From a virus, in IMG/VR virus record IMGVR_UViG_3300031999_000154, positions 1-29,053 of that record: a stretch of DNA of 29,053 nucleotides; one strand, given 5' to 3'. Below are positions 2,143 to 27,297 of this stretch, one piece after another. The number at the start of each line of letters is the position of its first letter. The stretch's first letter is position 1. The notes beneath the pieces were generated by a model. That model saw only the letters and a program-made list of their open reading frames with translations. It ran no database searches and had not been told where the DNA came from. The position numbers and the translations under genes are program-made.

Positions 2143-3069
2143 TTAGGTAATGGCGATGGACAGTTCGTCGTCGCCCGTATTCATGGCGCAGGCAAAGCCC
2201 AAGGTTCGCACACTGATGCCATTGCGATCCGCATCCGTCAACTCGCGGAACTGGGTCTTTGGGGCCGAGAGAGTCACGATGTTCCCAGCCGCTCCGGTCA
2301 GTGCCAACGACAGGGAACCCAAGGTGCCTGCCGTCCAGATGCCGTAGTAATCGGCATTGGCAACCAGATCCATTTCCGGATCCACCGTACCCTTGGGGTC
2401 ACGCCCGGTAATCAACGCAGAAGTGATCCCCTGGGCATTATTGGCACACTGACGCAGGGCGATGGTATTGCCCATGTCCAGATCAAACGAAGTGTAGCAG
2501 GGGTTTTCCGTGTGGATCGTGAAGATGTTATTGCCCATCATGCCAATTGGCACAACAGACGAGAAGGTGATGGGGGTGGGAGTGACAGCGTCAGTGACCG
2601 TGTCCAACACGCCTTGGAAATCCATCTCCATCATAACCGGTTCGCCAATCTTACCAGAGAAGCGCACGTTCCCCCGCATGCCCTTCCCCTTGAAGCACAC
2701 GCCGTCATCGTACACTGCCATTGTCAGACTGGGAATGGAGCTACTGGCCGGGAGGTAGGTCACTGATGTGGATGAAACGATGTTCTCTGCGAACCCACAG
2801 GCTCGCAGATACTTGCCCCAGTCTGGAGCTCCCCCAACCGTCCCGCTGCCCCGCAACTCAGTGCGGAACGTCACCTGGAATGGCCGCGTGCCATGGACCC
2901 CAGGCCCCCGTGACAAGGTACTCCGAACAAAGTCACGCTCAAACCAGTTGGCAGGCGTGACAATCTTCGGTTCGTACACCAGAATCCCACCATCGGCATT
3001 TGTCAGGGTTTCCCCTGTACCCTCAATCGCTTCAACCTTTGCCAGAACGCAGCGTTTCCGAATTAACAT
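2143..3069 (-). CDS. major tail tube protein
   Basis: A 308-residue protein beginning MLIRKRCVLAKVEA. It resembles the siphophage tail tube family I recognise from the LIRKR start, a central segment like RGSGTVGGAPDWGKYLRACGF (split over residues ~70-95), repeated DG/GN turns, and a C-terminal half containing ITGRDPKGTVDPEM and GAAGNIVTLSAPKTQF. The family forms the hexameric rings of the non-contractile tail tube. A very strong GGAGGAGG site lies about six bases before the ATG, fitting a highly expressed structural protein, and a terminator follows the gene. No sheath gene accompanies it, which argues against a contractile tail. Confidence 0.9.
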   Translation of the reverse strand: MLIRKRCVLAKVEAIEGTGETLTNADGGILVYEPKIVTPANWFERDFVRSTLSRGPGVHGTRPFQVTFRTELRGSGTVGGAPDWGKYLRACGFAENIVSSTSVTYLPASSSIPSLTMAVYDDGVCFKGKGMRGNVRFSGKIGEPVMMEMDFQGVLDTVTDAVTPTPITFSSVVPIGMMGNNIFTIHTENPCYTSFDLDMGNTIALRQCANNAQGITSALITGRDPKGTVDPEMDLVANADYYGIWTAGTLGSLSLALTGAAGNIVTLSAPKTQFRELTDADRNGISVRTLGFACAMNTGDDELSIAIT

Positions 3070-3289
3070 TGGAATCCTCCTCCTTCTTCTCGTGGGTTGT
3101 TATTTGAGGCTTGAAATACCGTTGCCGTTTTCGTTCCACAATAATTTGTTCTGGATTCTCCGCCACATGGTAATCTGGTTCTGGAGGTACAACCAACGTG
3201 CCATCGGGATTCAGTTCACGACCATATATGTCGTAGGTGTGACTTCCTCCATCACGAACGGTAAACGACTGCCGATGTTGCTCTGCCAT
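3032..3289 (-). CDS. small unknown protein before the tail tube gene
   Basis: An 85-residue protein starting MAEQHRQSFTVRDGG. I chose ATG 3289 because AGGAG lies seven bases upstream; the more upstream in-frame ATG at 3337 has no comparable site. The protein is polar and charged, with a KKEED-rich end that overlaps the start of the tail tube gene by 38 bases, so the two are probably translationally coupled. I do not recognise the family. Its place between the methyltransferase cassette and the tube gene may mean a minor tail or accessory role. Confidence 0.6.
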   Translation of the reverse strand: MAEQHRQSFTVRDGGSHTYDIYGRELNPDGTLVVPPEPDYHVAENPEQIIVERKRQRYFKPQITTHEKKEEDSNVNSETLRSGKG

Positions 3290-3349
3290 TTTACGACTCC
3301 TGTCTGTGCCATAGCATACCACATGGCATTTTACCATTAAATGAGTTTC

Positions 3350-4102
3350 TTACCGATAAGCAAAAAACCATCCAAGCCACTTTTGCGCGGGGCCAGGAAT
3401 GACCTCTACCTTGGTGAATCCGTTCATGAGTAACAACGTCTTCAAGGTATCAGCCGTATAGGCCACATGCCCATCTACTTTTGCACAATCAGGAATGAAT
3501 GGTTTGTGGGCTTGTTCAGGCAGCACCTTCGCCATATTTGGCCCACCAATCTCATGATACTCCCCAACGATACTGTCCACCCAAAATAATTTATTGGAGG
3601 TCAACAGAATAGGCCACTCTGACCCTTCACAATCAATTTTTATCATGTGAACCCGTTCCAACCCGTAGCTGGTCACTTCTTCCAAGATGGTATCTAATGG
3701 TATAGTCGGTACTACCTGCCCCTGCGGTGGACCCCACAACACATTTCCCCCTCCAGTCCATTTCAGATCTTCTGACGGTTGAAATGTCAAAGTCTTTGGC
3801 CCTTTGCCGTCAGACCGCCAGACCGCTGCACGCCGAATAGCCGCCTTGCCTTCTAGCCGATAATTCCGCAAGTTGTACAACGCCGCTTCATAGTTCCCAT
3901 GGTCCACTTCATATCCAAGCACCAATGACGCCCCAGATTGCAACGCCTTATACATGAATGACCCGCAGTGCGCTCCAACGTCTAATACGATACTATTTGC
4001 TGGTAACTGATCAGGAAGCCGGTACTCGTTATTAGTGACCACAGCCCGAAAATTTGCTTCATCTTCCGTTCCTGGTCGAAACATAAATGAATGAGGAGTC
4101 AT
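3350..4102 (-). CDS. FkbM-family SAM-dependent methyltransferase
   Basis: A 250-residue class I methyltransferase. Motif I is IVLDVGAHCGSF (residues ~38-49), followed by an acidic ribose-binding position in GYEVD (63-67). The FkbM hallmark IKIDCEGSEWPIL is at about 154-166. FkbM-family enzymes commonly methylate hydroxyls of sugars, in O-antigens, glycolipids and natural products. It is the last of three methyltransferases following a glycosyltransferase in a tight row and starts ten bases after the previous stop. I infer a role in modifying a glycan made by the same cassette; protein methylation cannot be ruled out. Confidence 0.85.
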   Translation of the reverse strand: MTPHSFMFRPGTEDEANFRAVVTNNEYRLPDQLPANSIVLDVGAHCGSFMYKALQSGASLVLGYEVDHGNYEAALYNLRNYRLEGKAAIRRAAVWRSDGKGPKTLTFQPSEDLKWTGGGNVLWGPPQGQVVPTIPLDTILEEVTSYGLERVHMIKIDCEGSEWPILLTSNKLFWVDSIVGEYHEIGGPNMAKVLPEQAHKPFIPDCAKVDGHVAYTADTLKTLLLMNGFTKVEVIPGPAQKWLGWFFAYR

Positions 4103-4112
4103 GACCTGTCCT

Positions 4113-4679
4113 TTAGCGTTGTGGTTTCCAGATCAAAGTTCGCATATGCTCCCGACGTTCTACAGAATACTGTGCAGCAAATTCCTCAACAGCCTTTCGT
4201 GCCCCTGGCAGGAAAAACCAATCATCACACACAATGGCGGCATTCGGCTCTAGTCGATCCGTTTCAACCAACCATTGAAAGACTTGCCGATGGGATTCAT
4301 ACAGATCTGGGTCTAAATAGATCAAAATAAATTTGATCCCCAACGGGAACAACGGCATGGTGTCTGCGAAGCGGCCCACGATTGGCGTGATATTTGGGTA
4401 GTCCACAAACATTTCTGGGAACGGTACTCCTGGTGTAAATCCGCCAGGACACATCAAGCTGGGAGGATCTACGGCTGAATCAGCAGTAAAGTCTTCAGCC
4501 GGGAGGCCACAGAATGTATCAAACGCATAGACCGGTCGGCCATAACAGGCAAGCTGTCTGGTACTCCCCCCATCGAATACCCCAAATTCTGCAATAGACC
4601 CAGGCAACTGCATACGTTCTACCATCAGCTTGTCGAACACTGCTCTATGATCAGAAATTGGTCCCGGAAGTGTTTTCAT
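4113..4679 (-). CDS. TylF/macrocin-type O-methyltransferase
   Basis: A 188-residue protein with the family's signature segments: EFGVFDGGST (31-40, SAM binding), YAFDTFCGLP (51-60), YLDPDLYES (121-129) and CDDW (151-154). Acidic residues in the last two match the metal and substrate site of the family. Known members (TylF, MycF) are metal-dependent sugar O-methyltransferases, and relatives occur in surface-glycan loci. It is somewhat shorter than typical members. The start is three bases after the stop of the preceding methyltransferase, so the genes form one translational block. Confidence 0.85.
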   Translation of the reverse strand: MKTLPGPISDHRAVFDKLMVERMQLPGSIAEFGVFDGGSTRQLACYGRPVYAFDTFCGLPAEDFTADSAVDPPSLMCPGGFTPGVPFPEMFVDYPNITPIVGRFADTMPLFPLGIKFILIYLDPDLYESHRQVFQWLVETDRLEPNAAIVCDDWFFLPGARKAVEEFAAQYSVERREHMRTLIWKPQR

Positions 4680-4682
4680 GAT

Positions 4683-5189
4683 TTACCTACAGGCTGTGAT
4701 ATACAAACTGGTATGACAGCGCGGCGTCCCAGTTATAGACAGCACCGTCATTCCCCGTTCCTCCAGTAATTGACGCAAATACTTACGGGTGAATCCCATC
4801 TTGTGGTACCCACCAGGATAATCCCCGACTCCATACACATGTTTCCCTAACTGCTCGTCTGACCACACTGGGTCTTTTCCTGTTTGCAGAATAAACCGAG
4901 CCAGGGCTTCTAGGTCTGGTGTTTCCAGATGCAGAATACCCCCAGGCTTGAGCAGACGAATCCAATCGTCTAACAGCCTACGGGTTTCATGCTGCCCAAA
5001 GTGCTCTAAGATTTCCAATGCCCATACTTCCTCAGCAGATTCCCACTCAAAATAATCTTCTACGTTAATTACGTCTCCACGCAAAAAGATAATTCCAGGT
5101 GGTGGAGTGAGATTTCGCCAATCAAAATTGATAACCCCATCTCCTTTCCAGTCTTCTCCACACCCTAGATTTATTCGTAGTAGTTTCAT
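4683..5189 (-). CDS. class I SAM-dependent methyltransferase (Methyltransf_11-like)
   Basis: A 168-residue Rossmann-type methyltransferase: RINLGCGED at 5-13 (motif I), NFDW at 21-24 (acidic SAM ribose contact), EILEHF at 59-64 and RLLKPGG at 78-84. Domains of this kind occur in sugar, lipid and small-molecule methyltransferases, often inside glycan loci, so the substrate cannot be read from sequence. The start ATG overlaps the glycosyltransferase stop (ATGA), indicating translational coupling. With its two neighbours it makes three unrelated methyltransferase families in a row. Confidence 0.85.
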   Translation of the reverse strand: MKLLRINLGCGEDWKGDGVINFDWRNLTPPPGIIFLRGDVINVEDYFEWESAEEVWALEILEHFGQHETRRLLDDWIRLLKPGGILHLETPDLEALARFILQTGKDPVWSDEQLGKHVYGVGDYPGGYHKMGFTRKYLRQLLEERGMTVLSITGTPRCHTSLYITACR

Positions 5190-6361
5190 GGTCGCATGTC
5201 CTTTAAGGTAGCAAGCACTTGGTCTACTGTATCACTTCCAAAGCATGTTGAGTATTTTCGACTATGAGGGGCCTGGGGAAGTGTTTCCTGATGCTTCCAC
5301 GGACAGGATGGTTTTTGATACTTATTTGCCAAACATGGGGTCGCACAGGCTTGAATACACCGAGCGGTTGGATAATACTTGGCGCGTTGACTTTTTCCAT
5401 CTAAGAAGTTAAAGATTCCTACCACTGGCTTCCGCAGAATACCTGCCCAATGAAATGCAGATGAATCTACAGAAAACACCGCATCAGCCACTGCAATCGC
5501 GGCCCCCATTTGCCGAATAGTTAAATTCATCAATGTCTGCGGACCCAGGTCTTGATGATGGAGATAATAGACACTCCAATGCTGTGTGGCTTGCAGAGCC
5601 ACATCTGCATGCCACGCATAACTCCGACTATCTGCTCCCGAAAAAGGTGCAATGAGTAACACAGGTTTTCGGGCCTTGGCAAAGCGACCTTTGGCTTCTT
5701 GAATTTCTTCTGGAGTCAGCACAATACACGTTCGGGGATTCTGCACTTTCAGGCCGATGAAGTGTGCCCAGATTTCTAACCGGTCTTTCCATTTCAACCC
5801 ATAGTTGCCGTCATATGATCCATACCATTGTTGGAGGTATTCATAGGCGGCACAGCATTGAGAAATATCTTCTACTAAATCGTAGTCTTTCCACACAGTA
5901 GATTTTCTACAATGAGTGGCATTGGTGTTTGGAGCATAGTTTGCCCCAAGATCTGATTCATTGAGCCACCACTGCCGATTGGCAATAACCCCACTTCCAT
6001 CAAACAACGATTGATAAAAACTTGGCACCGCGTAGTCCACATGAATTTCTGGAAATTGATCCTTGAGCATAGGAAACAATTGGGTTTGCACCAACACATC
6101 GCCCAAGCCACCCAAACGTCGTTCTAAGAGGAGTTTTTCACCGGGACGAAGATCATGGAGAGAAAATCGGAGCCGTGGTGGGTTGTAGGCAACTTCCTGT
6201 ACTTTCCATTTCTGTTGACTAATCGCAGTTTCTTGATCTTTCGTATAAATTATGACCTGCGAACCAGATTGGTATGTCTTTGGTGGAACTGACAACACGT
6301 ATCCATTCCGAACAAAAAATGCGCGTGGTTCTACCATTGTGTCTGTTTTAGTGAGCATCAT
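5186..6361 (-). CDS. GT9 (heptosyltransferase)-like glycosyltransferase with an N-terminal phage module
   Basis: A 391-residue protein from ATG 6361, chosen because GGAG lies eight bases upstream; a GTG at 6370 is too close to that site. Residues ~14-57 are a small module that also forms the N-terminus of the 8299-8691 product. From about 80 onward it looks like a GT-B enzyme of family GT9: RRLGGLGDVLVQTQLFPML near 82-100 (N-lobe glycine loop) and FSVDSSAFHWAGILRKPVVG near 296-315 (the D-S-x-x-H-W-A donor-site segment of heptosyltransferases). The C-terminus has a cysteine cluster (CIQACATPC, then PSCPW). GT9 enzymes classically add heptose to LPS core; the donor and acceptor here are unknown. 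The gene begins the cassette, 15 bases after the tail terminator gene. Confidence 0.8.
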   Translation of the reverse strand: MMLTKTDTMVEPRAFFVRNGYVLSVPPKTYQSGSQVIIYTKDQETAISQQKWKVQEVAYNPPRLRFSLHDLRPGEKLLLERRLGGLGDVLVQTQLFPMLKDQFPEIHVDYAVPSFYQSLFDGSGVIANRQWWLNESDLGANYAPNTNATHCRKSTVWKDYDLVEDISQCCAAYEYLQQWYGSYDGNYGLKWKDRLEIWAHFIGLKVQNPRTCIVLTPEEIQEAKGRFAKARKPVLLIAPFSGADSRSYAWHADVALQATQHWSVYYLHHQDLGPQTLMNLTIRQMGAAIAVADAVFSVDSSAFHWAGILRKPVVGIFNFLDGKSQRAKYYPTARCIQACATPCLANKYQKPSCPWKHQETLPQAPHSRKYSTCFGSDTVDQVLATLKDMRP

Positions 6362-6376
6362 GCAAGACACTCCACA

Positions 6377-6835
6377 CTAGGAAACCGTATAGGGGTCACC
6401 TTCTACGGTCCGATAATGAACGGTAAAGATGGTGTGCGTAGCAGCGAGTACATCTATCGGAGTGTCAAGATAGATGCTGTGCTCTGAGAACAATGTATCA
6501 ACAGCCAATCCCCCACGGGTCTTATCCGCAAGTAAGGCTACTTCTAAATCTGCTAGTAAGCCATTAACCTGCACACTCAGATCATCGTCCCCAGACCGAA
6601 TCCACGCCTGAATGACAATAACCAATTCTTTGGTCATCAGCGGATTTGGTCCTTGAGTTAGCCGTTCTGGCATTTCAAAAATAAAAAGTGCTGGAAACTC
6701 TAGGTTTTCTAGTAACGGAGTGACACGGGTTCGCTCAACCTGTCTGACTGTGAAATTATACACATCTCCTTCTACGATAGTTCGTAGCGCGGCTTCTATA
6801 TTCTGCAAAATGCGTTCGCGAACTGATTGTCTCAC
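6377..6835 (-). CDS. tail terminator / tail completion protein
   Basis: A 152-residue protein starting at GTG 6835, with AAGGGG eight bases upstream. The pattern is that of siphophage tail terminators (lambda U / HK97-like): an N-terminal helix (RERILQNIEAALRTIV), a central FPALFIFEMPE strand pair, ELVIVIQAWIRSGDDDL, then LLADLEVALLADKTRGG and a C-terminal TIFTVHYRTVEGDPY strand. The family caps the finished tail tube and joins it to the neck. Its position after connector and gp10-like genes fits. The glycosyltransferase cassette follows immediately. Confidence 0.75.
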   Translation of the reverse strand: MRQSVRERILQNIEAALRTIVEGDVYNFTVRQVERTRVTPLLENLEFPALFIFEMPERLTQGPNPLMTKELVIVIQAWIRSGDDDLSVQVNGLLADLEVALLADKTRGGLAVDTLFSEHSIYLDTPIDVLAATHTIFTVHYRTVEGDPYTVS

Positions 6836-6856
6836 GGTCGTTGCCCCTTAAAATAA

Positions 6857-6926
6857 TGCGGGGTCGGGAGTCGAACCCGCTGATTCCGGTGCATGAGCCG
6901 GTGAGCCGCCGTTGCTCCATCCCCGC
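6857..6926 (-). tRNA. atypical tRNA-Met(CAT)-like sequence
   Basis: A cloverleaf can be drawn on the minus strand: a 6-bp acceptor stem (GCGGGG with CCCCGC), TG, a perfect D stem (GAGC with GCTC), a 4-bp CCGG anticodon stem closing an eight-base loop CTCATGCA with CAT after T, and a CGGG-TTCGACT-CCCG T arm with a standard T loop. The irregularities are the eight-base anticodon loop, a four-pair T stem, an A-A mismatch at the base of the acceptor stem and no encoded CCA. It could be a real phage tRNA, a decaying one, or a tRNA-like RNA element. It fills the only gap between the gp10-like and tail terminator genes and lies on the transcribed strand. Confidence 0.6.
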
Positions 6927-6931
6927 ATAGA

Positions 6932-7612
6932 TTACGATTTTTGCAACATCGTTGCAAGCCGAGTATTTGCTGTACGTTCCAATAGCTCTACTTGACGTTG
7001 AGCAACTCCAAACATATCCACACGCGGAGGAACACTAACACTCTTTTTCAACACAAAAAGCGGCTGGATACCGCCATAGGTGCTTCCGGCTTGTGCCCCT
7101 CGCTGTCGAGCCAAGCGACCAAAGATGATCAGATTTCCCGCCCGTGAACGTTGAACGAAGGTATCTCCAAACACACTAGACCGTGGCCCTCCACGCAATG
7201 TACCCCCTGCGGTCAAGGCTTTCCCACCCATAATAGGAATGGGCAGATACTTTCCCTGTTTTGAATAGATATCATCTAATTGCCCACCTTTGCTCACAGT
7301 CCCGAGAACATGAGTTGGCGCGTACTTTGCCCCAGGGTCTACAAAGTGTACTTCACCTTCCAGTGTTTCTAGTGTGTTCCCGCGAACTCTGGATCGAAGT
7401 GACTCAATTAATTTCCCATGTCGTCGAGCAACACGAGTCGTGGTGGTGCCCCCTGTTAAATGAAAACTGATAAGATCAAGTCGAATGAGTTGTACCGTGG
7501 TTTGAAATAGTTTTCGCATGGCTCCCATTAGCTTAAAGGGAGCCTGTTGAAACATTTTCACTGTTTCTGCAATATCAATATTTACCTTAACGGTCAGTCG
7601 TTGATCAGCCAC
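6932..7612 (-). CDS. HK97 gp10-like neck/tail completion protein
   Basis: A basic protein of about 226 residues. GTG 7612 is preferred because GGGGGA lies upstream and it starts two bases after the previous stop; an in-frame ATG at 7633 would add seven residues but has a poorer site. The N-terminus (VKVNIDIAETVKMF) and the helix RRHGKLIESLRSRV, followed by a strand-rich DPGAKYAPTHVLGTV segment, match the gp10-like family that closes the connector and tail interface. It is longer than usual, with a Gly/Arg-rich middle and a C-terminal helix (RQVELLERTANTRLATML). Assignment rests on general pattern and position between connector and terminator genes. Confidence 0.65.
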   Translation of the reverse strand: MADQRLTVKVNIDIAETVKMFQQAPFKLMGAMRKLFQTTVQLIRLDLISFHLTGGTTTTRVARRHGKLIESLRSRVRGNTLETLEGEVHFVDPGAKYAPTHVLGTVSKGGQLDDIYSKQGKYLPIPIMGGKALTAGGTLRGGPRSSVFGDTFVQRSRAGNLIIFGRLARQRGAQAGSTYGGIQPLFVLKKSVSVPPRVDMFGVAQRQVELLERTANTRLATMLQKS

Positions 7613-7614
7613 CG

Positions 7615-8232
7615 TCAGTCCCCCGCATTCCACCGTCGTTCAGCATACAAACTTGCCCGGACATCTGGGAGCAGTTCAATGGACGTGTAGGTCACGGTCC
7701 CACTGTCTGTATGACCTACCGCCGTAGTCCCCAAGGAATCACGACGTTGCCACAAGAATCGCAACTGAAGTTCAAAGGCCAACCGAATCGGATTGCTTCG
7801 GTCTAGCTGGAGGACCCCGGTTTTGTCTACTGGGTATCCTCCATTGTACATGACCTTGATGTTTCCCACTCCAGGCATCAAAGTATGCCCCGGCAGTAGG
7901 TAGAGCAACCCCGTGCTGTCTTCCACATAATACTCTGACGACGGGATCAGACTGTTACCAGCAAACGCTCTGGTCGTGTCGTCATACAAACGTATAGTTT
8001 GTGTATTGATGTTGGGGTACGCTCGCAGAGACAAGAAGGCCCGACCATTTCGGCCCCCATGAAAAATCTCTGTACGAACCGCATCCGTGCCGGTCAATTT
8101 ATCCAGCGTGCGGTTCAGGACTTGGGCTATTCGACCAGAAAGCAATTGCACCATAATATCTAGGCGATTACTTTCTGTGTCTGTAACTTTCCCCATTAAC
8201 TCCTTGGCATCCGCGAGCGATATAATGTACAT
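7615..8232 (-). CDS. gp6-like head-tail connector protein
   Basis: A 205-residue protein starting MYIISLADAKELMGK with GGAG six bases before the ATG. The N-terminal helices (LADAKELMG, NRLDIMVQLLSGRIAQVLNR), the strand-rich middle with a YYVEDSTGLLYLL segment and NIKVMYNGGYP, and the later helix IRLAFELQLRFLWQRRDSLG are the usual layout of HK97 gp6 / SPP1 gp15 adaptors. These form a ring under the portal to which neck and tail attach. Such genes normally follow the major capsid gene closely; here about 17 kb of appendage genes lies between them. Confidence 0.85.
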   Translation of the reverse strand: MYIISLADAKELMGKVTDTESNRLDIMVQLLSGRIAQVLNRTLDKLTGTDAVRTEIFHGGRNGRAFLSLRAYPNINTQTIRLYDDTTRAFAGNSLIPSSEYYVEDSTGLLYLLPGHTLMPGVGNIKVMYNGGYPVDKTGVLQLDRSNPIRLAFELQLRFLWQRRDSLGTTAVGHTDSGTVTYTSIELLPDVRASLYAERRWNAGD

Positions 8233-8243
8233 TCCTCACTCCA

Positions 8244-8387
8244 TTAGCGATACTGCATATCGTCATCTTTGAGCATCCGGTCTAATCCCGGACGTGTTTT
8301 ACCGGCCCTTCCGGAAAGGGAGGGGCTTTTTGACAACTTTGGCTTTGATGGCTTTTTGGATGTCTTCTTTGATGTCTTCTGGCTCAT
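8244..8387 (-). CDS. short lysine-rich protein
   Basis: A 47-residue frame starting MSQKTSKKTSKKPSKP, ending eleven bases before the connector ATG. AGGAG lies nine bases upstream of its ATG. It overlaps the end of the 8299-8691 gene by 89 bases in another frame, and both reading frames are lysine-rich there, so one could be a shadow of the other. Without it there would be an unexplained 66-base gap before the connector gene, which supports reality. No family recognised; it looks disordered and strongly basic. Confidence 0.45.
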   Translation of the reverse strand: MSQKTSKKTSKKPSKPKLSKSPSLSGRAGKTRPGLDRMLKDDDMQYR

Positions 8388-8691
8388 CGTCCTCTTCTCC
8401 TGCAATTTGAGAATCCAACTGTGCATCCTGTTCTACATTGAGTATTGGTTTTGGTGTAGAGACAGACACAGGTTCGGGCATCGGTTCTGGAACAACAGGG
8501 ACTGGTTGAAGTTTTACGATAACTTCTTCAACCTTCCAGCGTTGACTTTCTACCGCCTGCAACATTTCTTCGGTGGCCACGAGAACATCAGTTCCACCTT
8601 CGTAAATCGTCCCACCCAGATGCAGCGCATAACTCTGCCGAACTTTGAACTTGCGTGCCACCTTTAGTAATGTTGGCTTGAGCATACTCAC
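8299..8691 (-). CDS. small protein with the N-terminal module shared with the glycosyltransferase
   Basis: A 130-residue protein beginning at GTG 8691 (GGGAGG six bases upstream). Residues ~14-57 form a compact module, FKVRQSYALHLGGTIYEGG through RWKVEEV, that aligns without gaps to the N-terminus of the GT9-like enzyme. A proline/valine-rich linker follows (VPVVPEPMPEPVSV), then an acidic stretch (EEDDEPEDIKED) and a basic tail (KAKVVKKPLPFRKGR). It lies at the boundary between the appendage island and the neck genes. No function known; a minor head or neck protein, or an adaptor, would fit the place. Confidence 0.75.
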   Translation of the reverse strand: MSMLKPTLLKVARKFKVRQSYALHLGGTIYEGGTDVLVATEEMLQAVESQRWKVEEVIVKLQPVPVVPEPMPEPVSVSTPKPILNVEQDAQLDSQIAGEEDDEPEDIKEDIQKAIKAKVVKKPLPFRKGR

Positions 8692-8703
8692 ACTACACCT
8701 CCC

Positions 8704-11700
8704 TTACAGTTCCTCAATGTCAAATGCAACCTTCCATACGTTGGGTGCCGCCTGTTCTGCCTTCAAGGAATCCCCGACCATCCGAACAGTATAGGTGACA
8801 TTCGTCAAAGGGTGGGTCCAATCAAACGCAGTCGCCCCACCGTGAATAGTATCAAAGAACGAAAGCATTGTATTCTTTTGGGCCGTGGGTAATACATCCC
8901 AATGTAACTTGAATAACTGATGCTTTCGTTGCCAGCGAGATCGAGTTTGTATTATGCCATCTGGAGCCGATGACCGCAAGTTCGTCCGTTTCGTTTTTTC
9001 CTCCAAGGGATAATCTGGAGGATACAAATCTGACGGCCAAGTGTATTTAGGAATATTCAACGTTGGAGCCTCTCCACCAAACACATAACCTCCGTATGCA
9101 AAACTCTGGATAGTGGTTTTAGGCATCGCCGATGTTGGTCTATCTGTTGTGCCCCCTAATTTATAGCCTCCTGTTGGAGTGTGCTGATATTCTACAGCAG
9201 ATAGTTCCACATTAGCACGGAGAAAGAAATGATGATCATCTGGATCATCTAATGCCGCCAAGTCGTCATACACATAAATTTGACTATTAGTGACTCGGCG
9301 TTGCGTAAACGACGACGTATCACCAGGGGCAATATGATAATATTCTAAGCCGGTACTACCTGGAAACGCCCCAGTGTCATAGGTGCAAGGTCGCCACGTT
9401 TTCCCCCCGTCATTAGAAAAGAAATGAATGGCCCCACCTACCCCATTTGCGGGGACACCATCTAGACCCATTAAGAAGTTCTGCGTAGGACCAACACTCA
9501 AACTGACTACCCACCCTCGCCCAGAAAACACTGGATTTGCTGGGTCATCACTTGGATCTATCTGGGTATGAACAGACTCACTGTAATCAGTCCAACCCTC
9601 CCCAAAATTTCCAGATCTCCACGCATACATATATGTGCGACCATCTGTTGCTGTCGGCACATACAGCGCATCTGCTTGTGTGTCCCCAGAAAGATCTATA
9701 TCTTCTCGTTCTTGTGTACAGGCTTTAAACGAACCTACGAGAAACACATTCCATAAATTGTCGCTAGTAGCCGCAGCACTGAATCCAAAATACCCACCGG
9801 CTCCCCGCAAGCGATTTTCGGCAATACGATGATTTGCCCAAGTAGATATTGGTTTGTGTCCTACCCACGTGACCCCATTGTCCACACTTCGCCACACGGC
9901 TGGACGGCCCTCGCTACAACAGCATCCAATCATCACAATGTTGTTGACAAAAATTCCACTACAAGCATAGGTCTTTTCAAACACCGTTCCGGCACCATTC
10001 GGTGTCCCCACCACTAGGATAGGATCACTCCAGGTAGATCCATTGTCATATGAGTGATAACCAATGATAGAGTATTGATCACCTCCAGCCACATGATATT
10101 CCCCCGCCACAGGATAGAATTCACCGTATGCAATCAGGTGCCCGCTGCCTAGATTAATAAATCCATTAATCTTTGCCCAGGACTCTGTATCTGCTGGTGC
10201 ATACCCTGTCGGGTACACGTCTTCGTAAGTCTCCCCATTATCAACACTCAATATAGCAAATTTTCCAATAGGATAACTTACTGACGGGGGTGTGGCGTGT
10301 GAAGTACACAGCAATCCCACAAGAATTCTATTTTCTACCGGAATAATCGTTGCGGTGGCTGCACTTCCTAACGCCACTTGAATTTCTGTGCCTTCTGTAA
10401 AGTTGATATTATTCGTGCTTTTCAATTGGCGGAGCACCACTCCATTTGCCGGAGGCGGAGCGTCACTTTGAATAATAGTTACTCGCAATTGATTCTGTGT
10501 AGTGATGGGACCAGTCACCAACACATCATTTGGGACCAAACTATCTAAGTCAGTAGACCGATACCATTTAATACCTTGCAGCACTTGAGCGTTCTGCGTT
10601 GTAGTCAAATACCCAGACACATAACCATGAATTGCGACATTAGAAACAAACTCAGCCTTTTCGTGCGTGGTAAATGCCGCCCCGGTTATTGTCAGCGATA
10701 GTGTTACTGACGTTGCAAAGAGTTTTTGTGTCGTTAAACTGTCTACACTGGCGGTCAGGGCCAAGGTGATTGACCCATACAACCCACTCTGTAACACCGC
10801 AGCCATGCTCGCGGTGACACTGGCCCTTACATAGATGTTGGCATCTGACAATGTCACATTCGGAGTCGTAATCGCCAGGGTCGCTTGGCCACCGATAATT
10901 GAGGCATCGAAGTACAGGGTTTCTACATCTACTGAAATCAAGCACGTACAGATCCCGTATATCGGGATGATGTTTAACCCTGGAGATTCTGCGTTGACGC
11001 TAAGTGTGATATTTGCATAAAGCGGAAAACGTTCATCGTCGGTCAACTGCATGTAACCTGGAACCACTGCACTGATACCTGGAGTTCCCGCCATAACCGG
11101 TCCAAAAGAATCTCCAGGAAGAATGGCGTCACGTAAATCAACCCAAGAATATGTTGATGTTCGGGCAGGATTCACTGGTTCTGTCGGAGTGGAGGCACTG
11201 TCCTTATCTTCTAGCTGTGTCCCACCGAACGGGACGATAGAATGCGCCGGATTGTCAATAACACTATAGTTATAAAACACTGGACCAAAAGTATTTCCTG
11301 GAACTAATATGTCACGTGCTGTAGGTATTGGTTCTGGTTCTACGTTATAGTCATCATCTTCATCAGTTACCTGTCCAAAATTTGGCACATTGATATCTAT
11401 GCCAAATGCGTTAAACATGGTAGGGCTGTCAGAGTTCCCTCCAAGCAAGAAACTTCGAAAACTTCGCCAAGGGATTGTGGTAATACGAGAAGAATCAGTT
11501 GAAGGTACTGGCCTAGAAAAAGTACGAACACCCTCTAAATGTATGCCTCCTGGTAAAGTCAAACTGTTATTGTCTACCGCCTTACTATTTACTCCGACAT
11601 CTTCATTAAAATAAAGTGCTTGATCACCAGGAATGACATATTCACGGTGTTCCAAATAGATGTTATTTTGAATATTTGTTAAAGACCAAAATCGTCGAGA

Positions 11701-12336
11701 GTATAGCTCAACCGGTGGGCCATCTTCTACGCTTGTCCCAGTGACTACTCCACTTGAGGTAGGATTTACTGACGAAAGATTGATTTCCGGTGAAAAGACA
11801 CCGTTAAGCGGAAGGTAGTGAGTAGGTGTGCCAAATGAAAGTGGATGCCTTCCCTTGTGAAACGCTAAAACCTCGTTTGCTGTGAGTGTTCGAGGAATGA
11901 CAGTAAATTCGGCGATTCTGGCATTTGCATTCTGTCCACCAGTTTCAATTTGTCCAATTTTCACAGGTCCATAACATCCGACGTTTAACCCACTAGCAGA
12001 CCCAATGGATGTTCCATTTAAATAGACAGTTTGAGGGGTAGCGTATAATCCCAAAGTCAGTACAAAGCTATTCCATGCGTTTTGATTGAGTGTGTAATTC
12101 CCACTAGTGATAGTGACATGATTATTACCAAAATAATATTGTCCAACTTTGAGGCTATTGTCAGACGCCTTCCAAGCATGGTAATACCCTGCTGGATCTC
12201 CTCCGGTGTACCAAATTGGATGATCAACACCATCAGTTTGACTAAATAGTGGATACCACCAACAAAGTATTGAACCTGAAAAGCCTATACTTTGAAAAGT
12301 AATAAGATCTGATGTACTATTAAATAGTCGGGCCAT
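8704..12336 (-). CDS. large chimeric appendage protein: LamG-like, internal repeats, Asp-box propeller, lambda M-like end
   Basis: 1210 residues. In order: a LamG/concanavalin-like domain (1-165, ending GKRIAEF-type strands) paralogous to the N-terminus of the 17536-18690 product; four diverged repeats of about 45 residues (~230-437) each with an (I/L)xPGxxF-like turn and an acidic end; a Thr/Ser/Val-rich beta region (440-585); a propeller-like region with Asp-boxes S-x-D-x-G-x-T-W near 697, 762, 817 and 974 and a decayed one near 908; and a C-terminal ~95 residues (FKLHWDVLPTAQKNTMLSFF, AFDWTHPLTNVTYTVRM) resembling lambda gpM-type tail domains. Asp-boxes occur in sialidases and many non-catalytic propellers; I see no clear catalytic set. 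Probably a virion adhesin. Confidence 0.85.
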   Translation of the reverse strand: MARLFNSTSDLITFQSIGFSGSILCWWYPLFSQTDGVDHPIWYTGGDPAGYYHAWKASDNSLKVGQYYFGNNHVTITSGNYTLNQNAWNSFVLTLGLYATPQTVYLNGTSIGSASGLNVGCYGPVKIGQIETGGQNANARIAEFTVIPRTLTANEVLAFHKGRHPLSFGTPTHYLPLNGVFSPEINLSSVNPTSSGVVTGTSVEDGPPVELYSRRFWSLTNIQNNIYLEHREYVIPGDQALYFNEDVGVNSKAVDNNSLTLPGGIHLEGVRTFSRPVPSTDSSRITTIPWRSFRSFLLGGNSDSPTMFNAFGIDINVPNFGQVTDEDDDYNVEPEPIPTARDILVPGNTFGPVFYNYSVIDNPAHSIVPFGGTQLEDKDSASTPTEPVNPARTSTYSWVDLRDAILPGDSFGPVMAGTPGISAVVPGYMQLTDDERFPLYANITLSVNAESPGLNIIPIYGICTCLISVDVETLYFDASIIGGQATLAITTPNVTLSDANIYVRASVTASMAAVLQSGLYGSITLALTASVDSLTTQKLFATSVTLSLTITGAAFTTHEKAEFVSNVAIHGYVSGYLTTTQNAQVLQGIKWYRSTDLDSLVPNDVLVTGPITTQNQLRVTIIQSDAPPPANGVVLRQLKSTNNINFTEGTEIQVALGSAATATIIPVENRILVGLLCTSHATPPSVSYPIGKFAILSVDNGETYEDVYPTGYAPADTESWAKINGFINLGSGHLIAYGEFYPVAGEYHVAGGDQYSIIGYHSYDNGSTWSDPILVVGTPNGAGTVFEKTYACSGIFVNNIVMIGCCCSEGRPAVWRSVDNGVTWVGHKPISTWANHRIAENRLRGAGGYFGFSAAATSDNLWNVFLVGSFKACTQEREDIDLSGDTQADALYVPTATDGRTYMYAWRSGNFGEGWTDYSESVHTQIDPSDDPANPVFSGRGWVVSLSVGPTQNFLMGLDGVPANGVGGAIHFFSNDGGKTWRPCTYDTGAFPGSTGLEYYHIAPGDTSSFTQRRVTNSQIYVYDDLAALDDPDDHHFFLRANVELSAVEYQHTPTGGYKLGGTTDRPTSAMPKTTIQSFAYGGYVFGGEAPTLNIPKYTWPSDLYPPDYPLEEKTKRTNLRSSAPDGIIQTRSRWQRKHQLFKLHWDVLPTAQKNTMLSFFDTIHGGATAFDWTHPLTNVTYTVRMVGDSLKAEQAAPNVWKVAFDIEEL

Positions 12337-12339
12337 GTC

Positions 12340-12825
12340 TTATTCCCAGATGATACAGGCTGACCATGTGGATACCACAGCCAAAGTCCAACCAGATGTT
12401 TCAAATACCAAATCCATAACCACTGTTTCTCCAACCACCAAGGTATCTCCATCTAATGTAACTTTGATTCGTTTGTACTGATCATTATCCCCACTGGCCC
12501 AGGTTAGCGTCTGGGTGCCTTCCGCTTGCAACGTAGCCACGTCTGGGGCCTCTTCAGGAGCAACGCTGGCCCACTTTGGGTTCACTTTGGCTGCGTTACT
12601 GGTCGCATTCGCCAAGGCCCAAAGGTCTAGTTTTCCAGTTCCATTTGGAAAAGCTGGAGGCATACGAAATCGTAATCGCCAAATAGAATCTCCATTCACA
12701 GACGCCATAACTCCCAGTCCTTCTTCATGCTTTGAATTTGACCCCGCTCCAACATGAATATTTGGAAAGACTTTACCCGCTGTTACCGCAACAGCAGAAT
12801 AGGGAAAAATCGGTCCGCCAGCCAT
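12340..12825 (-). CDS. appendage protein A', paralog of 18692-19216
   Basis: 161 residues, beta-rich, starting MAGGPIFPYSAVAV, with AAGGAG before the ATG. It aligns over its whole length with the 18692-19216 product: NIHVGAGSNSKHEEGLGV against NVHVGLGAYSKHDDGLGV, then IWRLRFRMPPAFPNGTGKL, WALANATSN, ITLDG-like strands and a C-terminal GWTLAVVSTW against NWTLTKTSTW. Its stop is three bases before the large LamG/Asp-box gene, and its paralog likewise directly precedes the other LamG gene. The conserved pairing suggests the two products work together, for example as anchor and shaft of an appendage. No named family recognised. Confidence 0.75.
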   Translation of the reverse strand: MAGGPIFPYSAVAVTAGKVFPNIHVGAGSNSKHEEGLGVMASVNGDSIWRLRFRMPPAFPNGTGKLDLWALANATSNAAKVNPKWASVAPEEAPDVATLQAEGTQTLTWASGDNDQYKRIKVTLDGDTLVVGETVVMDLVFETSGWTLAVVSTWSACIIWE

Positions 12826-12838
12826 AATACTCTCCTTG

Positions 12839-14383
12839 CTAAGTTACCCTGATTTTCGGATCTATAAACACTGTGTAAGAGGCTTTTGCACATCGGACAC
12901 GCGCAGTGACGACACCCTTGAGTTGAGGAGTTACACTGACCTCAAGCCTTTGTTTATTGACATTAGTAATACCGGTCGTGTACCATTCCGCCGTGCTGGT
13001 GTCCTGAGCGGTTCCAGTCAGTCCAGGACTACCTCGATCAGTACTCAAAGCTGCTAATGGCCAAGTAGCAGTAGTCAAAGTACAGACTTCCAACCAAATT
13101 TCTAAATTCGTTAAAGCAGTTGCACTGTCATGAAGGATTTCAATTGTCAAAGTTCTAGCCGACCCTATTTCATCAATCCAGGTCGCCATCCAAGGTGAAA
13201 CAACGCCATCAAACCCAGCGGCATTGGCATTCGTAACCATTTTCCAGGCAATTGGCGTTGTCCCATCACTTGCCCCACCTGTTCGCACATAGGTCACTTC
13301 ATCCATAAGAGTTCCACCACACTCACGTCTCCCCAACTTGTAGTTTTTCGTCCCGCTATCACAAAGTTCAACGGTAATCGCCCCCACGTTATTTTCTGGT
13401 GCATTCCCAGTAAAAAGTGTGACATTGGAATTTAGCTTACATCGAGAAATGGCCAGAGTATGCCCCCCCATATTTGTTGTGTCAATGAGATTCGATTCTA
13501 CCAATGACAAATCCATTCCGGTAATTGTGTTCATACCGCCAAAAGAAGCCGAGTTAAAATGAAGAAGAGTAGTGGGAGCCGTTCCAAGAATACCGCCCCC
13601 CAAGATAGTATGAGATCCACCACCTAACCAAATATATTGTCCCGCATGAGTAAACTCAATAGTCGTGTTAATCAACAACACATCATTGGCGTTATACGAG
13701 GAAGAAATGTTCCCCAGGAGCACACTACATCCCGTAACCGCATAGGCGAGTTTTAGCGCACAAGTATCAAATATATTACGTGCGTATTGACTTGCCCCCA
13801 ACACGAACCCTAGCGTCCCGGCGCTCGCACCATACCCCGCCTCAAATGTGACTCCATAATATCGGACACCAGAACAGCTCAGGGTTAGCGTTCCGATAGT
13901 TCGAAACTTAGCGCCAGCCGCCCTGCTCGTTGGTGGTTCATTGACGATATCAGAGGTACTAATCACGTTAGTCGGAACGACCATACTTCCCTGATTTGGC
14001 GCTCCACCCAACGTCATTGCTTCTGTGCAGTTCTCATCTATCGTATTATCTGCCCAAATAGAATCTCCCGCAGACCATATCGTCGCGGCGTTTGTCATTA
14101 AATATTCGATATAGAGTGTTGCATTAGCCCATGATGTTGGATTTCTAAGTGTCCACACCACACCATTATCGTTCACTGTCCCTGTTGTGGGCCAGGTTGG
14201 CTCTGTCGCACCGTGTGACGTGCCCCCGGTCGTACATTCGTACACGTACCGTCGCCGAGCGACGGTCGCATAGGCCCGACGGCAGACCACGCGATCTCCT
14301 GTCGTGTAGACTGTACCCGGTGCCCACTCTGCTCGACCAGTTCCGCCCATCGCACTTGGGGCTTTGATATACCAATGTGTCAT
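12839..14383 (-). CDS. tandem beta-helix appendage protein, copy 3
   Basis: 514 residues, the third and most diverged of three adjacent paralogs. The N-terminal ~100 residues (THWYIKAPSAMGGTGRAEWA, GDRVVCRRAYA, YECTTGGTSHGATEPTWP, VNDNGVVWTLR) form a small module I know from many phage virion proteins. The centre (~120-350) has short repeating strands (YYGVTFEAGYGA, LINTTIEFTHAGQ, ISRCKLNS) as in right-handed beta-helices. The C-terminal ~110 residues (LTIEILHDSATALTNLEIWL, VTPQLKGVVTARVRCAK, FIDPKIRV) are the shared end domain. GAGGGAG precedes the ATG. Likely a trimeric fibre or spike; the glycan-cleaving or binding role is unknown. Confidence 0.8.
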   Translation of the reverse strand: MTHWYIKAPSAMGGTGRAEWAPGTVYTTGDRVVCRRAYATVARRRYVYECTTGGTSHGATEPTWPTTGTVNDNGVVWTLRNPTSWANATLYIEYLMTNAATIWSAGDSIWADNTIDENCTEAMTLGGAPNQGSMVVPTNVISTSDIVNEPPTSRAAGAKFRTIGTLTLSCSGVRYYGVTFEAGYGASAGTLGFVLGASQYARNIFDTCALKLAYAVTGCSVLLGNISSSYNANDVLLINTTIEFTHAGQYIWLGGGSHTILGGGILGTAPTTLLHFNSASFGGMNTITGMDLSLVESNLIDTTNMGGHTLAISRCKLNSNVTLFTGNAPENNVGAITVELCDSGTKNYKLGRRECGGTLMDEVTYVRTGGASDGTTPIAWKMVTNANAAGFDGVVSPWMATWIDEIGSARTLTIEILHDSATALTNLEIWLEVCTLTTATWPLAALSTDRGSPGLTGTAQDTSTAEWYTTGITNVNKQRLEVSVTPQLKGVVTARVRCAKASYTVFIDPKIRVT

Positions 14384-14395
14384 TATCGTCTCCCT

Positions 14396-15952
14396 CTAAC
14401 TTACAACAATCTTTGGATCAACATACACTGTATAGTTAGGTTTCGCAAAATAGACTTTGGCGGTCACAAAGCCTTTCATTTGAGGAGTGACCACAACAGA
14501 TAATTTTTGTCTATTCGGGTTTGCCATCCCAACTGTGTACCAGGTCTCAGAACTAGAGGTCTGGGCCGTTCCTCCTAAAACTGGAACGCCTCTATCCGTT
14601 ACTATCAACGCTTGCGGATAATTCGCGTTCGTGAGGACCACCGCTTCTAACCAAACCTCGTCATCTTTTAATGCAGTTACACTATCATGCAAAATTTCCA
14701 CAGTCAAAGTTTTTTCTACTCCTGTCTCGTCAATCCAGGTCGCTATCTGTGGAGTTCGAAGTGCGAAGAAACAGTTATTTGCGGTGGATACCATTTTCCA
14801 AGCAATCGGAGTCGTTCCATCACTCGCTCCACCAGTACGGACACGAGCCGTCTCATCCACGACCGTTCCAGCAAAATCATAAACAGCCATTTTATAATTA
14901 GCAGTTCCTGCTGAACAAAGTTCTACAACAATATTTGCTCCACGTCTTGCAGAAACAAGAGTTCCCGTAAACGCATTTACAGATGAATTGAGTTTGCATC
15001 GAGATATTAAAAGTGATAAATCTTGCATGTTTGTTACGTTAATAAGATTTGTCGAAGCGTTAGAAAGATCTACTCCAATAATTGAAGTTGAACCCGAAAG
15101 ATAGTGTACTACTCCATAAAACAACGATGTTGGAGGTACTCCAAGTATTGCTCCACCAAACATCGTGGATCTTCCTAGTTCAACAGCAATACCCTGCCCC
15201 GCGTGAGTAAACTCAATATCAGTATCAATGAGACGTGCTTCTCCTGGTGCGAAGTTGCTACTTGAATTCCCATAATACACATAGCATCCAGTCACCGCAT
15301 ACGCTAATTTGATTTTACAATTTTCCAAAGTAATTCCACTATACCAACCGTTATTACCATTGACTGTGTAAAAATGTGGAGTGCCACTGGTCGCACCATA
15401 TCCAACCTCAAATATACATCCGTAAAAATGTAATGCTGAGGCAGCCGGTTCACAGTATGACGTAGATCGAAACTTAGCACCTACAGCCCGAGATGTTGGA
15501 GGCTCATGTGTCAGATCTGAAGTGCTTGTGATGTAAGTTGGAATAACATAATTCCCTTCATTGTAGTTTACATTCCCCAGAGACAGAATACCTGTTAGTT
15601 CAGTAACAAGACTATTGTCCACCCAAAAATAATCCCCTGCTGCCCAAGTCCAATCGGCTACTCCCATAATATAGTCCAAATAAATTGAAGCATTAATCCA
15701 AGTGATTGGTTGACGTGTCGTCCAGATCACCCCGTTATCATTCACCGTAGATGACGTAGGCCATACCGGCTCCGTACTCCCATGCGAAGTGCCTCCTGTC
15801 GTACATTCATAGACCCACCTTCGTCGTGTGGTACTCGCATACGTCCGACGGCACACCACGCGATCACCAACAGAATACACGGTACTCGGTGCCCATTCTG
15901 CTCGACCAGTTCCACCCATTGCACTTGGGGCTTTAATATACCAGTGTGTCAT
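14396..15952 (-). CDS. tandem beta-helix appendage protein, copy 2
   Basis: 518 residues with the same architecture as its two neighbours: N-terminal GDRVVCRRTYA...YECTTGGTSHG module, central beta-helix-like strands, and C-terminal LTVEILHDSVTALKDDEVWL...YVDPKIVV domain. It shares long identical DNA stretches with copy 1 (83 identical bases at 14862-14944 and 70 at 15466-15535), whereas other segments of the same genes differ strongly. AAGGGA lies six bases before the ATG, which is 12 bases after the stop of copy 1; the same 12-base spacing separates copies 2 and 3. This regular layout supports serial duplication. Confidence 0.8.
   Translation of the reverse strand: MTHWYIKAPSAMGGTGRAEWAPSTVYSVGDRVVCRRTYASTTRRRWVYECTTGGTSHGSTEPVWPTSSTVNDNGVIWTTRQPITWINASIYLDYIMGVADWTWAAGDYFWVDNSLVTELTGILSLGNVNYNEGNYVIPTYITSTSDLTHEPPTSRAVGAKFRSTSYCEPAASALHFYGCIFEVGYGATSGTPHFYTVNGNNGWYSGITLENCKIKLAYAVTGCYVYYGNSSSNFAPGEARLIDTDIEFTHAGQGIAVELGRSTMFGGAILGVPPTSLFYGVVHYLSGSTSIIGVDLSNASTNLINVTNMQDLSLLISRCKLNSSVNAFTGTLVSARRGANIVVELCSAGTANYKMAVYDFAGTVVDETARVRTGGASDGTTPIAWKMVSTANNCFFALRTPQIATWIDETGVEKTLTVEILHDSVTALKDDEVWLEAVVLTNANYPQALIVTDRGVPVLGGTAQTSSSETWYTVGMANPNRQKLSVVVTPQMKGFVTAKVYFAKPNYTVYVDPKIVVS
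14862..14944 (-). repeat. 83-base perfect direct repeat, copy in gene 2
   Basis: These 83 bases are identical to 16434-16516. They encode part of the beta-helix core ending in the AVYDFAGTVV segment of two neighbouring paralogs. The sequence differs at once on both sides, so this looks like recent recombination or gene conversion between the copies. Confidence 0.9.
15466..15535 (-). repeat. 70-base perfect direct repeat, copy in gene 2
   Basis: Identical to 17035-17104. It encodes the ITSTSDLTHEPPTSRAVGAK segment at the entrance of the central beta-helix region in copies 1 and 2. Confidence 0.9.
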
Positions 15953-15964
15953 GACTCTTCCCTT

Positions 15965-17524
15965 TTAACTCGTAATAACAACCTTTGGATCAACATATAT
16001 TGTGGAATTCACCTTTGCAAAAGCAACTCTAACAGTCACATAACCTTTGAGTTGTGGAGTTACATTTACTGATAATTGTTGTCTATTCGGGTTTGCCATC
16101 CCAACTGTGTACCAGGTCGCAGAACTAGAGGCTTGATTTATTCCACCAAACGTCGGAATTCCCTTATCTGTAGTCAGAGATGCTTGAGGAAAACTTGCGT
16201 CAGTAAGCGCCGTCACTTCAAGCCAAATCTCAGTATCTTTTAATGCAGTTACACTATCATGCAAAATTTCCACAGTCAAAGTTTTAGCTGACCCTACATC
16301 ATCAATCCAAATTGCGATTTGTGGAGTCCGAAGTGCGAAGAAACAGTTATTTGCGTTGGATACCATTTTCCAGGCGATTGGCGTTGTCCCATCGCTCGCC
16401 CCGTCTACACGGATAAAAGTCTTTTCGTCTACAACCGTTCCAGCAAAATCATAAACAGCCATTTTATAATTAGCAGTTCCTGCTGAACAAAGTTCTACAA
16501 CAATATTTGCTCCACGACGGCCTATATACGTTCCAGTAAACATATTTACAGATGAATTGAGTTTGCATCGAGATATTAAAACAGACAAACTGTACATGTT
16601 TGTTACATCAATAAGATTTGACGAAGCAGTAGAAAGATCTACTCCAACAACAGAAGCAAGTCCTCCGAAATAGTTGGTTGCTCCATAAAACACTGTTGTT
16701 GGGGAAGTCCCGATCACTGATCCACCAAGGATTTCAGATCTCCCATGATTAAATATAATACCCTGCCCTGCATGAGTAAACTCAATATCAGTGTTAATTA
16801 ATTTTGTATCTGATGAATAATACACCGAAGACCCACACCCTAAATACACATAGCATCCAGTCACCGCATACGCTAATTTGATTTTACAATCTTCAAAAGT
16901 TATTCCGCTAAAATTATCAGCGTTGTTAGGAACTGTATAAAAGCGTGGAGTGCCACTGGTCGAACCATATCCAACCTCAAATATACATCCATAAAAATAC
17001 ATTCCTGAAGAACGTGGATCAAAATGTCCTGCGAATCGAAACTTAGCACCTACAGCCCGAGATGTTGGAGGCTCATGTGTCAGATCTGAAGTGCTTGTGA
17101 TGTAGGTTGGAACAGTGTACGATCCAGGATTATAAGTCGTCTGTCCTATGTAAAGAGTACCACCATACTCAACCACAATACTACTATCCACCCAAAAACG
17201 ATCTCCTGCTGCCCAAGTCGTTGTTGTAATACTCATGAAATAGTCAAGAAACAATGTGGCATTAGCCCAAGAAGTCGGTTCTCTAGTTGTCCACACCACA
17301 CCATTATCATTTACCGTACCACTTACAGGCCACACCGGCTCAGTGGTCCCATGGCTTGTTCCCCCAGTCGTACATTCATAGACATACCGTCGCCGAGCGA
17401 CGGTACCATATCCCCAACTGCATATTACTCGATCACCGATTGTATATGCAGTATTTACTGTCCACAGTGCTCGGCCAGTCCCTGTGCCTACAGGACTTGC
17501 AGCTTTGACATACCAATGTGCCAT
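15965..17524 (-). CDS. tandem beta-helix appendage protein, copy 1
   Basis: 519 residues from ATG 17524 (GAGG eight bases upstream); the frame is open further upstream but that part lies inside the preceding gene and does not match the paralogs. N-terminal module residues ~1-105 (MAHWYVKAASP, GDRVICSWGYG, YECTTGGTSHGTTEPVWP), a central strand-rich region (~120-395) with ITFEDCKIKLAYAVTGCYVY and LINTDIEFTHAGQG, and a C-terminal domain (LTVEILHDSVTALKDTEIWL, VTPQLKGYVTVRVAFAK, IYVDPKVV). It is closest to copy 2 at DNA level. Together the three look like interchangeable fibres or spikes sharing both end domains. Confidence 0.8.
   Translation of the reverse strand: MAHWYVKAASPVGTGTGRALWTVNTAYTIGDRVICSWGYGTVARRRYVYECTTGGTSHGTTEPVWPVSGTVNDNGVVWTTREPTSWANATLFLDYFMSITTTTWAAGDRFWVDSSIVVEYGGTLYIGQTTYNPGSYTVPTYITSTSDLTHEPPTSRAVGAKFRFAGHFDPRSSGMYFYGCIFEVGYGSTSGTPRFYTVPNNADNFSGITFEDCKIKLAYAVTGCYVYLGCGSSVYYSSDTKLINTDIEFTHAGQGIIFNHGRSEILGGSVIGTSPTTVFYGATNYFGGLASVVGVDLSTASSNLIDVTNMYSLSVLISRCKLNSSVNMFTGTYIGRRGANIVVELCSAGTANYKMAVYDFAGTVVDEKTFIRVDGASDGTTPIAWKMVSNANNCFFALRTPQIAIWIDDVGSAKTLTVEILHDSVTALKDTEIWLEVTALTDASFPQASLTTDKGIPTFGGINQASSSATWYTVGMANPNRQQLSVNVTPQLKGYVTVRVAFAKVNSTIYVDPKVVITS
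16434..16516 (-). repeat. 83-base perfect direct repeat, copy in gene 1
   Basis: Partner of 14862-14944; all 83 bases match. Confidence 0.9.
17035..17104 (-). repeat. 70-base perfect direct repeat, copy in gene 1
   Basis: Partner of 15466-15535; all 70 bases match. Confidence 0.9.
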
Positions 17525-17535
17525 GAGCGTATCCT

Positions 17536-18690: not shown

Positions 18691-18691
18691 A

Positions 18692-19216
18692 TTATTGCTC
18701 TACCACAACCATCGGCAACATCCATGTGGATGTTTTGGTCAACGTCCAGTTAGCTGGGATAAAACAAAGATCCAACAGTAATACACTTCCATCTACCAAT
18801 GCCCCACCATCTAACGTAATTTTTGATTCCACATATTTATTCGCGTCACTGGCTCCCCAGGTTATAGTAGTCACACCTTCATCATACAATGCAACCGACG
18901 AGGGATCAGTCCCCATCGCTGCACAACCCCACTTAACTTGAACCTTGGCGACCTTGCTATTTTCATTGGCCAAGGCAACCAGACCAAGTTTCGGCGTGCC
19001 TGTAGGAATCGGCGCGAGTAGCCGATACCGCAATCGCCAAATAGCTCCTGCACTTGGCGCGAAGTGCAGAGAAATATTCCCCGCCATTTCGTACCCGACC
19101 CCAAGTCCATCATCATGTTTACTATACGCTCCAAGACCAACATGTACGTTGCCAAACGTATGGGGAGGAGACACGGGGACCGCCGACATAAACGCGCCTG
19201 CAATCGTTTGACTCAT
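18692..19216 (-). CDS. appendage protein A, paralog of 12340-12825
   Basis: 174 residues, beta-rich, starting MSQTIAGAFMSAVPVS, with AAGGTGAG just upstream. It aligns end to end with the 161-residue A' product (HVGLGAYSKHDDGLG; AIWRLRYRLLAPIPTGTPKL; VALANENSKVAKV; ITLDGGALVDGSVLLLDL; NWTLTKTSTW). In both places the A gene directly precedes a LamG-bearing B gene. No named family or catalytic motif seen; small all-beta virion protein is the most that can be said. Confidence 0.75.
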   Translation of the reverse strand: MSQTIAGAFMSAVPVSPPHTFGNVHVGLGAYSKHDDGLGVGYEMAGNISLHFAPSAGAIWRLRYRLLAPIPTGTPKLGLVALANENSKVAKVQVKWGCAAMGTDPSSVALYDEGVTTITWGASDANKYVESKITLDGGALVDGSVLLLDLCFIPANWTLTKTSTWMLPMVVVEQ

Positions 19217-19225
19217 GATCTCACC

Positions 19226-19624: not shown

Positions 19625-19638
19625 AACCACGTCCTCCG

Positions 19639-20031: not shown

Positions 20032-20032
20032 C

Positions 20033-20351: not shown

Positions 20352-20360
20352 GGGACACCA

Positions 20361-21858: not shown

Positions 21859-21859
21859 G

Positions 21860-23464: not shown

Positions 23465-23479
23465 TGTCCTGCTCCTTTC

Positions 23480-27268: not shown

Positions 27269-27297
27269 CGGATTTTCCTCCATCGTGTGTTGTACGG

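Follow-up and report, generated by a model that had tools for sequence, protein, structure and literature searches.

A glycosyltransferase (GT) gene and three methyltransferase genes lie among the tail genes of an uncultured tailed phage, which raises the question of what these enzymes modify and why they are found there. The window, by which we mean the whole stretch of DNA that was analysed, was IMG/VR record IMGVR_UViG_3300031999_000154 (29,053 bases). ORFs cross both of its ends and it is therefore apparently a fragment.

Gene organisation of the window

All of the recognised genes in the window were late genes on the minus strand. They encoded head morphogenesis proteins, a protease, an HK97-type major capsid protein, a run of large proteins and a head-tail adaptor, followed by the tail terminator, the four-gene cassette, the tail tube and the tape measure (Table 1). 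The tube protein could be aligned with three phage tail tubes. The arrangement described in an earlier sequence-only reading, in which the tail terminator and tail tube genes enclose a GT and then three methyltransferases on the same strand, was confirmed for all four ORFs. Two of its details were corrected. The GT had been given a start at 6361, which is only the first ATG, as the ORF can begin with a GTG at 6370; and the FkbM-type gene is separated from the tube gene by a small ORF that gave no matches when PHROG was searched.

Table 1. Features of the cassette and its surroundings in the window
Feature	Position	Strand	Size	Basis or remark
Tail tube; downstream flank of the cassette and candidate acceptor	2143-3069	-		Phage_tube_2, E 1.2e-14
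Small ORF between the FkbM-type and tube genes	3032-3337	-	101 aa	may not be a gene
FkbM-type methyltransferase	3350-4102	-	250 aa	Pfam, TIGR01444
TylF-type sugar O-methyltransferase	4113-4679	-	188 aa	Pfam, phrog_6608
Class I SAM methyltransferase (Methyltransf_11/23)	4683-5189	-	168 aa	Pfam, LGCG motif
GT9/heptosyltransferase-like GT	5186-6370	-	394 aa	weak GT9 score, motifs kept
N-terminal module of the GT	6182-6361	-	~57 aa	homologous to 8512-8691
Tail terminator; upstream flank of the cassette	6377-6835	-		phrog_4204, E 8.6e-14
Protein of the same structural operon, upstream of the adaptor	8299-8691	-	130 aa	shares the GT module

The GT and class I methyltransferase genes overlapped by 4 nt (5186-5189), and gaps of 3 nt, 10 nt and 12 nt separated the class I methyltransferase from the TylF-type gene, the TylF-type from the FkbM-type gene and the FkbM-type gene from the small ORF respectively. 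The start of the class I methyltransferase gene was preceded by AAAGGA. The GC content of the cassette genes was 0.46-0.49, compared with 0.57 for the tube gene and 0.60 for the capsid gene, and that of the tail terminator gene (0.46) was like the cassette. Promoter and terminator scans gave results that were no better than those for shuffled sequence. The structural operon also contained a tRNA-like element with a CAT anticodon (6856-6927), with a connector-region gene on one side and the tail terminator gene on the other; the element was absent from the Rfam matches at the gathering score.

The glycosyltransferase

The GT kept the motifs of heptosyltransferases and its GT9 assignment was weak. 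Pfam Glyco_transf_9 matched residues 282-345 (64 residues) only, with an E-value of 1.7e-4 and a score of 21.4 bits that missed the gathering cut-off of 22 bits; the GT9-like call of the sequence-only reading was retained on its motifs, at less strength than had been claimed. The NCBIfam heptosyltransferase I model also matched (E 3.2e-6), far under its equivalog cut-off. A phmmer search of all PDB chains with the GT gave no match at E-values up to 1. A profile built from the GT and three phage homologs gave weak PDB matches to 3TOV (E 0.006), 1PSW (E 0.04) and 2H1F/2GT1 (E ~0.35), which fell on the GxGD and D..H motif regions. G88, G90, D91, D302 and H307 were invariant in the four phage homologs including the GT, which retained GxGD and D-S-S-x-x-H-x-A-G motifs. 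The structure model of the GT, made from a three-sequence alignment, had a pLDDT of 34 and was unusable. No relatives were found when the GT alone was searched against viral contigs or when the GT alignment was searched against genome contigs.

The GT resembled the GT9 heptosyltransferases WaaC and WaaF in that the GxGD and D-[ST]-[SG]-x-x-H motif regions were at the expected places. Unlike these enzymes, it fell under the family cut-offs, bears an extra N-terminal module and is encoded by a phage. TibC and Aah, the bacterial autotransporter heptosyltransferases, are heptosyltransferase-type enzymes that modify proteins, and a GT9-like protein glycosyltransferase is therefore plausible.

The extra N-terminal module was shared with the 130-aa protein of the same operon. 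The two aligned by BLASTP with an E-value of 2e-9, and their alignment score of 93 compared with a mean of 26 and a maximum of 57 for shuffled sequences, such that none of 5000 shuffles reached it. The 130-aa protein had no match in Pfam or in phage records, and searches of phage records and of viral contigs gave no further copy of the module. The simplest reading of the shared module would be that a phage domain was duplicated onto the GT, and such a duplication would fit the targeting of the GT to a virion or assembly protein. As the module is common to the GT and a protein of the same operon, we would guess that the GT may dock on a part of the virion through it.

Homologs of the GT were also present in three large uncultured phages (L090, L178 and L179, ~3600-9000), where their neighbours include an MptE-like protein and large proteins that look structural; these regions are perhaps another glycosylation set. 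The homologs were without the N-terminal module.

The three methyltransferases

The sequence-only reading had assigned the three methyltransferases to the Methyltransf_11, TylF and FkbM types, and all three assignments held, the first by a narrow pass (E 1.7e-4, 22.6 bits against a cut-off of 21.2) and the others clearly. For the TylF-type protein the Pfam match had an E-value of 3.3e-12 and 46.6 bits (cut-off 23), and phrog_6608 matched with an E-value of 1.4e-14. Its PDB matches were 5I10/4CDZ and NovP (2WK1); 4CDZ, which the PDB record names as an O-methyltransferase, we take to be SpnK. D123, D125, D152 and D153 are kept in a 10-sequence alignment and also align with SpnK-type chains. The corresponding Asp residues of NovP bind metal or act as a base. 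The TylF-type assignment is firm, and the matched SpnK and NovP are both sugar O-methyltransferases. No relatives were found when the TylF query alone was searched against viral contigs. The FkbM-type protein matched Methyltransf_21, the FkbM family of Pfam, with an E-value of 2.6e-9 and 37.9 bits (cut-off 22.7), and TIGR01444 with an E-value of 9.9e-14 and a score of 52 (cut-off 37.7), from which the family assignment can be regarded as firm.

The insertion site in tail-tube relatives

In the relatives with a recognised tail terminator (13 loci), the terminator ended 4-236 nt before the tube ORF. Among 51 relatives whose sequence extends at least 3.5 kb upstream of the tube, all but three had a terminator-sized ORF abutting the tube, and none had homologs of the cassette enzymes next to it. 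TylF, FkbM and GT2 genes were also sought in 50 tail-tube relatives; no such cassette was found at the tube site, and the searches gave no FkbM genes and a single TylF gene (G045), which lies ~47 kb away from the tube gene. As many of the relatives surveyed are near-duplicates, their effective number is smaller. The Synechococcus phages S-LBS1 and S-CBS1 were without the cassette. As the site between the terminator and the tube is empty in relatives, the cassette is most simply read as a lineage-specific insertion. The survey of related phages for the cassette at the same site, which the sequence-only reading had proposed, was negative among the tail-tube relatives.

Similar gene sets in unrelated phages

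A homologous TylF gene lies beside GTs in the structural modules of Catdawg and Corndog (cluster O) and of Gordonia GMA2. Corndog gp35-38 comprise an O-methyltransferase and three glycosyltransferases (PMC4351075), the Catdawg counterpart being gp33-36. In three papers, each of which cites Freeman et al. 2023, the cluster O mycobacteriophage enzymes are said to modify the capsid and tail tube (PMC11600133), Corndog gp38 and Che8 gp110 are named as essential for capsid glycosylation (PMC12363180) and the mycobacteriophage capsid and/or tail is reported to be O-glycosylated (PMC11652166).

Like the cluster O loci, the window has a TylF gene (about 31-35% identity between the homologs) adjoining at least one GT on one strand and inside the virion structural operon. 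The two differ in position, as the cluster O genes sit between the portal and the protease whereas the cassette is between the terminator and the tube, and in content, as cluster O has one methyltransferase only and three GTs without detected similarity to the window GT. When the window GT was compared with the ORFs of the Catdawg locus (L005) by phmmer nothing was found, and only TylF matched. Since the GTs gave no sequence match to one another, we rejected the idea that the cassette came directly from a cluster O phage. Like the cassette, GMA2 Orf21-23 include a TylF methyltransferase, with two GTs after it, and are bordered by connector and tail genes; the GTs are different ones and no FkbM or Methyltransf_11 gene is annotated at Orf21-23.

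Further cases were obtained from a scan of viral contigs. The siphophage L097 (IMGVR_UViG_3300037467_000637) has, in its connector module, a GT-like gene with GxGD, a methyltransferase and TylF in the same order as in the window, within the gene order head-tail adaptor, GT-like, methyltransferase, TylF, head closure, neck, terminator and tube. Unlike the window, its GT-like protein belongs to phrog_6804, its methyltransferase is of the Methyltransf_24 type, FkbM is lacking and the site is between the adaptor and head closure genes. A set richer than that of the window was found in L112 (6773-13044), where radical SAM, TylF, 784-aa GT-like, FkbM and Methyltransf_11 genes are flanked by tail-type and endolysin genes. 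In L144 the terminase is followed by a GT9-like gene and then TylF, and in L092 TylF comes after a portal of the Mu type. In L093 and L094 TylF lies among genes that we read from their ORFs as packaging-type, close to HldE-like heptose kinase genes. The TylF relatives in L095 and L096 were not clearly in structural modules. Gene combinations similar to the cassette recur in unrelated phages, where they lie in structural, packaging or tail modules.

The HldE-like genes encode homologs of HldE domain I (L093:1254-2060, E 2.2e-37; L094:3072-5831, E 1e-44) and, in L094, of domain II (E 2.6e-19), all of them below the equivalog cut-offs. Because these close viral relatives of the TylF gene lie near HldE-like genes, there are hints that the sugar used by the cassette may be derived from ADP-heptose. 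These genes and the GT itself are the only links to heptose; the 29-kb window, itself a fragment, had no ADP-heptose gene that could be recognised.

Candidate acceptors

The capsid and tube genes lay ~23 kb apart in the window, compared with a median distance of 2.05 kb for 27 relatives. Large proteins are encoded in the additional DNA, and many of them are Ser/Thr-rich (18-21%); two have Laminin_G-type lectin domains and three are paralogs of ~520 aa. Fibre- or decoration-like proteins occupy ~16 kb between the capsid and adaptor genes (8704-25063), with internal duplications at 12839/14396/15965 (56-68% identical), 12340/18692 and 17536/19226/8704. A structure model of a fibre-like paralog had a pLDDT of 44 and its best Foldseek matches were phage tailspikes with TM-scores of ~0.2, a hint that these paralogs may be beta-helical. 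The large fibre-like proteins, among them those encoded at 12839-17632, are candidate acceptors alongside the tube and the major capsid protein (26069-27283).

Function of the cassette

We consider it probable that the cassette glycosylates the virion and then O-methylates the added sugar. This reading is favoured because the genes are tightly packed on one strand inside the structural operon and because the cluster O enzymes are reported to modify virions. The four genes would form a virion-decoration cassette that is expressed late. The GT9-like enzyme, brought to the assembling particle by its N-terminal module, would transfer a sugar, plausibly heptose from an ADP-activated donor, to at least one virion protein, and the TylF- and FkbM-type enzymes, and probably the Methyltransf_11 enzyme too, would O-methylate it. 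The acceptor could be the tube, the capsid, the 130-aa protein or the large fibre-like proteins. A more specific proposal, in which the GT is a virion-docking protein O-heptosyltransferase and the three methyltransferases act on different positions of the heptose to give a multiply methylated heptose coat, is doubtful in our view. The sequence-only reading had also preferred a virion glycan, a preference which the cluster O precedent, the shared GT module and the absence of membrane and flippase genes from the cassette strengthened, while its GT9 basis was weaker than stated.

The main rival to virion glycosylation, which we judge unlikely, is that late in infection the cassette modifies a glycan of the host surface (LPS or capsule) and so blocks superinfection or the binding of progeny to debris. 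GT9 enzymes build LPS core, the GT profile matches LPS heptosyltransferases, and enzymes of the FkbM and TylF families have sugars as substrates, all of which would agree with a host target. None of the four enzymes had a membrane segment (the highest 19-residue hydrophobicity mean was 1.46), and when the cassette was compared with a Gtr-type O-antigen conversion operon it contained no membrane flippase, membrane GT or polyprenyl-linked GT. The late structural placement, the GT module common to a structural-operon protein and the nearest precedent, cluster O, whose enzymes modify virions according to the papers cited above, also argue against the host surface. It is rather improbable that the genes are loosely gathered morons, with the GT and the methyltransferases each acting on a substrate of its own (protein side chains, a small molecule or nucleic acid) and grouped only because the insertion site tolerates them. 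The enzymes have only distant relatives in other phages, their combinations vary among phages and the class I methyltransferase has no assigned substrate, as such a collection might show, but a GT and TylF are found together again in unrelated phages (L097, L112, L144, cluster O and GMA2) and the cassette genes overlap or almost touch.

Hypermodification of DNA, with the enzymes glycosylating and methylating modified bases of the phage genome, is very improbable. TylF enzymes are sugar-directed and GT9 enzymes act on glycans or proteins; moreover, no base-modification gene was recognised in the window and the cassette is inside the tail module. The evidence for it is the best phage match of the FkbM-type protein (MW202657; 31% identity, E 3e-4), which is encoded near pyrimidine hydroxymethylase, DNA polymerase and HaeIII-type methylase genes and not in a structural module.

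With virion glycosylation as the preferred reading, what is already known is that such cassettes exist in some mycobacteriophages; here the enzymes and the site are different. What is new is the GT module common to a protein of the same operon and the HldE-like genes near close viral TylF relatives. The shared module is a concrete lead on how the GT could find its virion target, and the HldE-like genes are a lead on the sugar involved. Together with the parallels, the cassette suggests that the self-decoration of phages with methylated sugars is wider than the mycobacteriophages and may be carried out with different enzymes in unrelated environmental phages.
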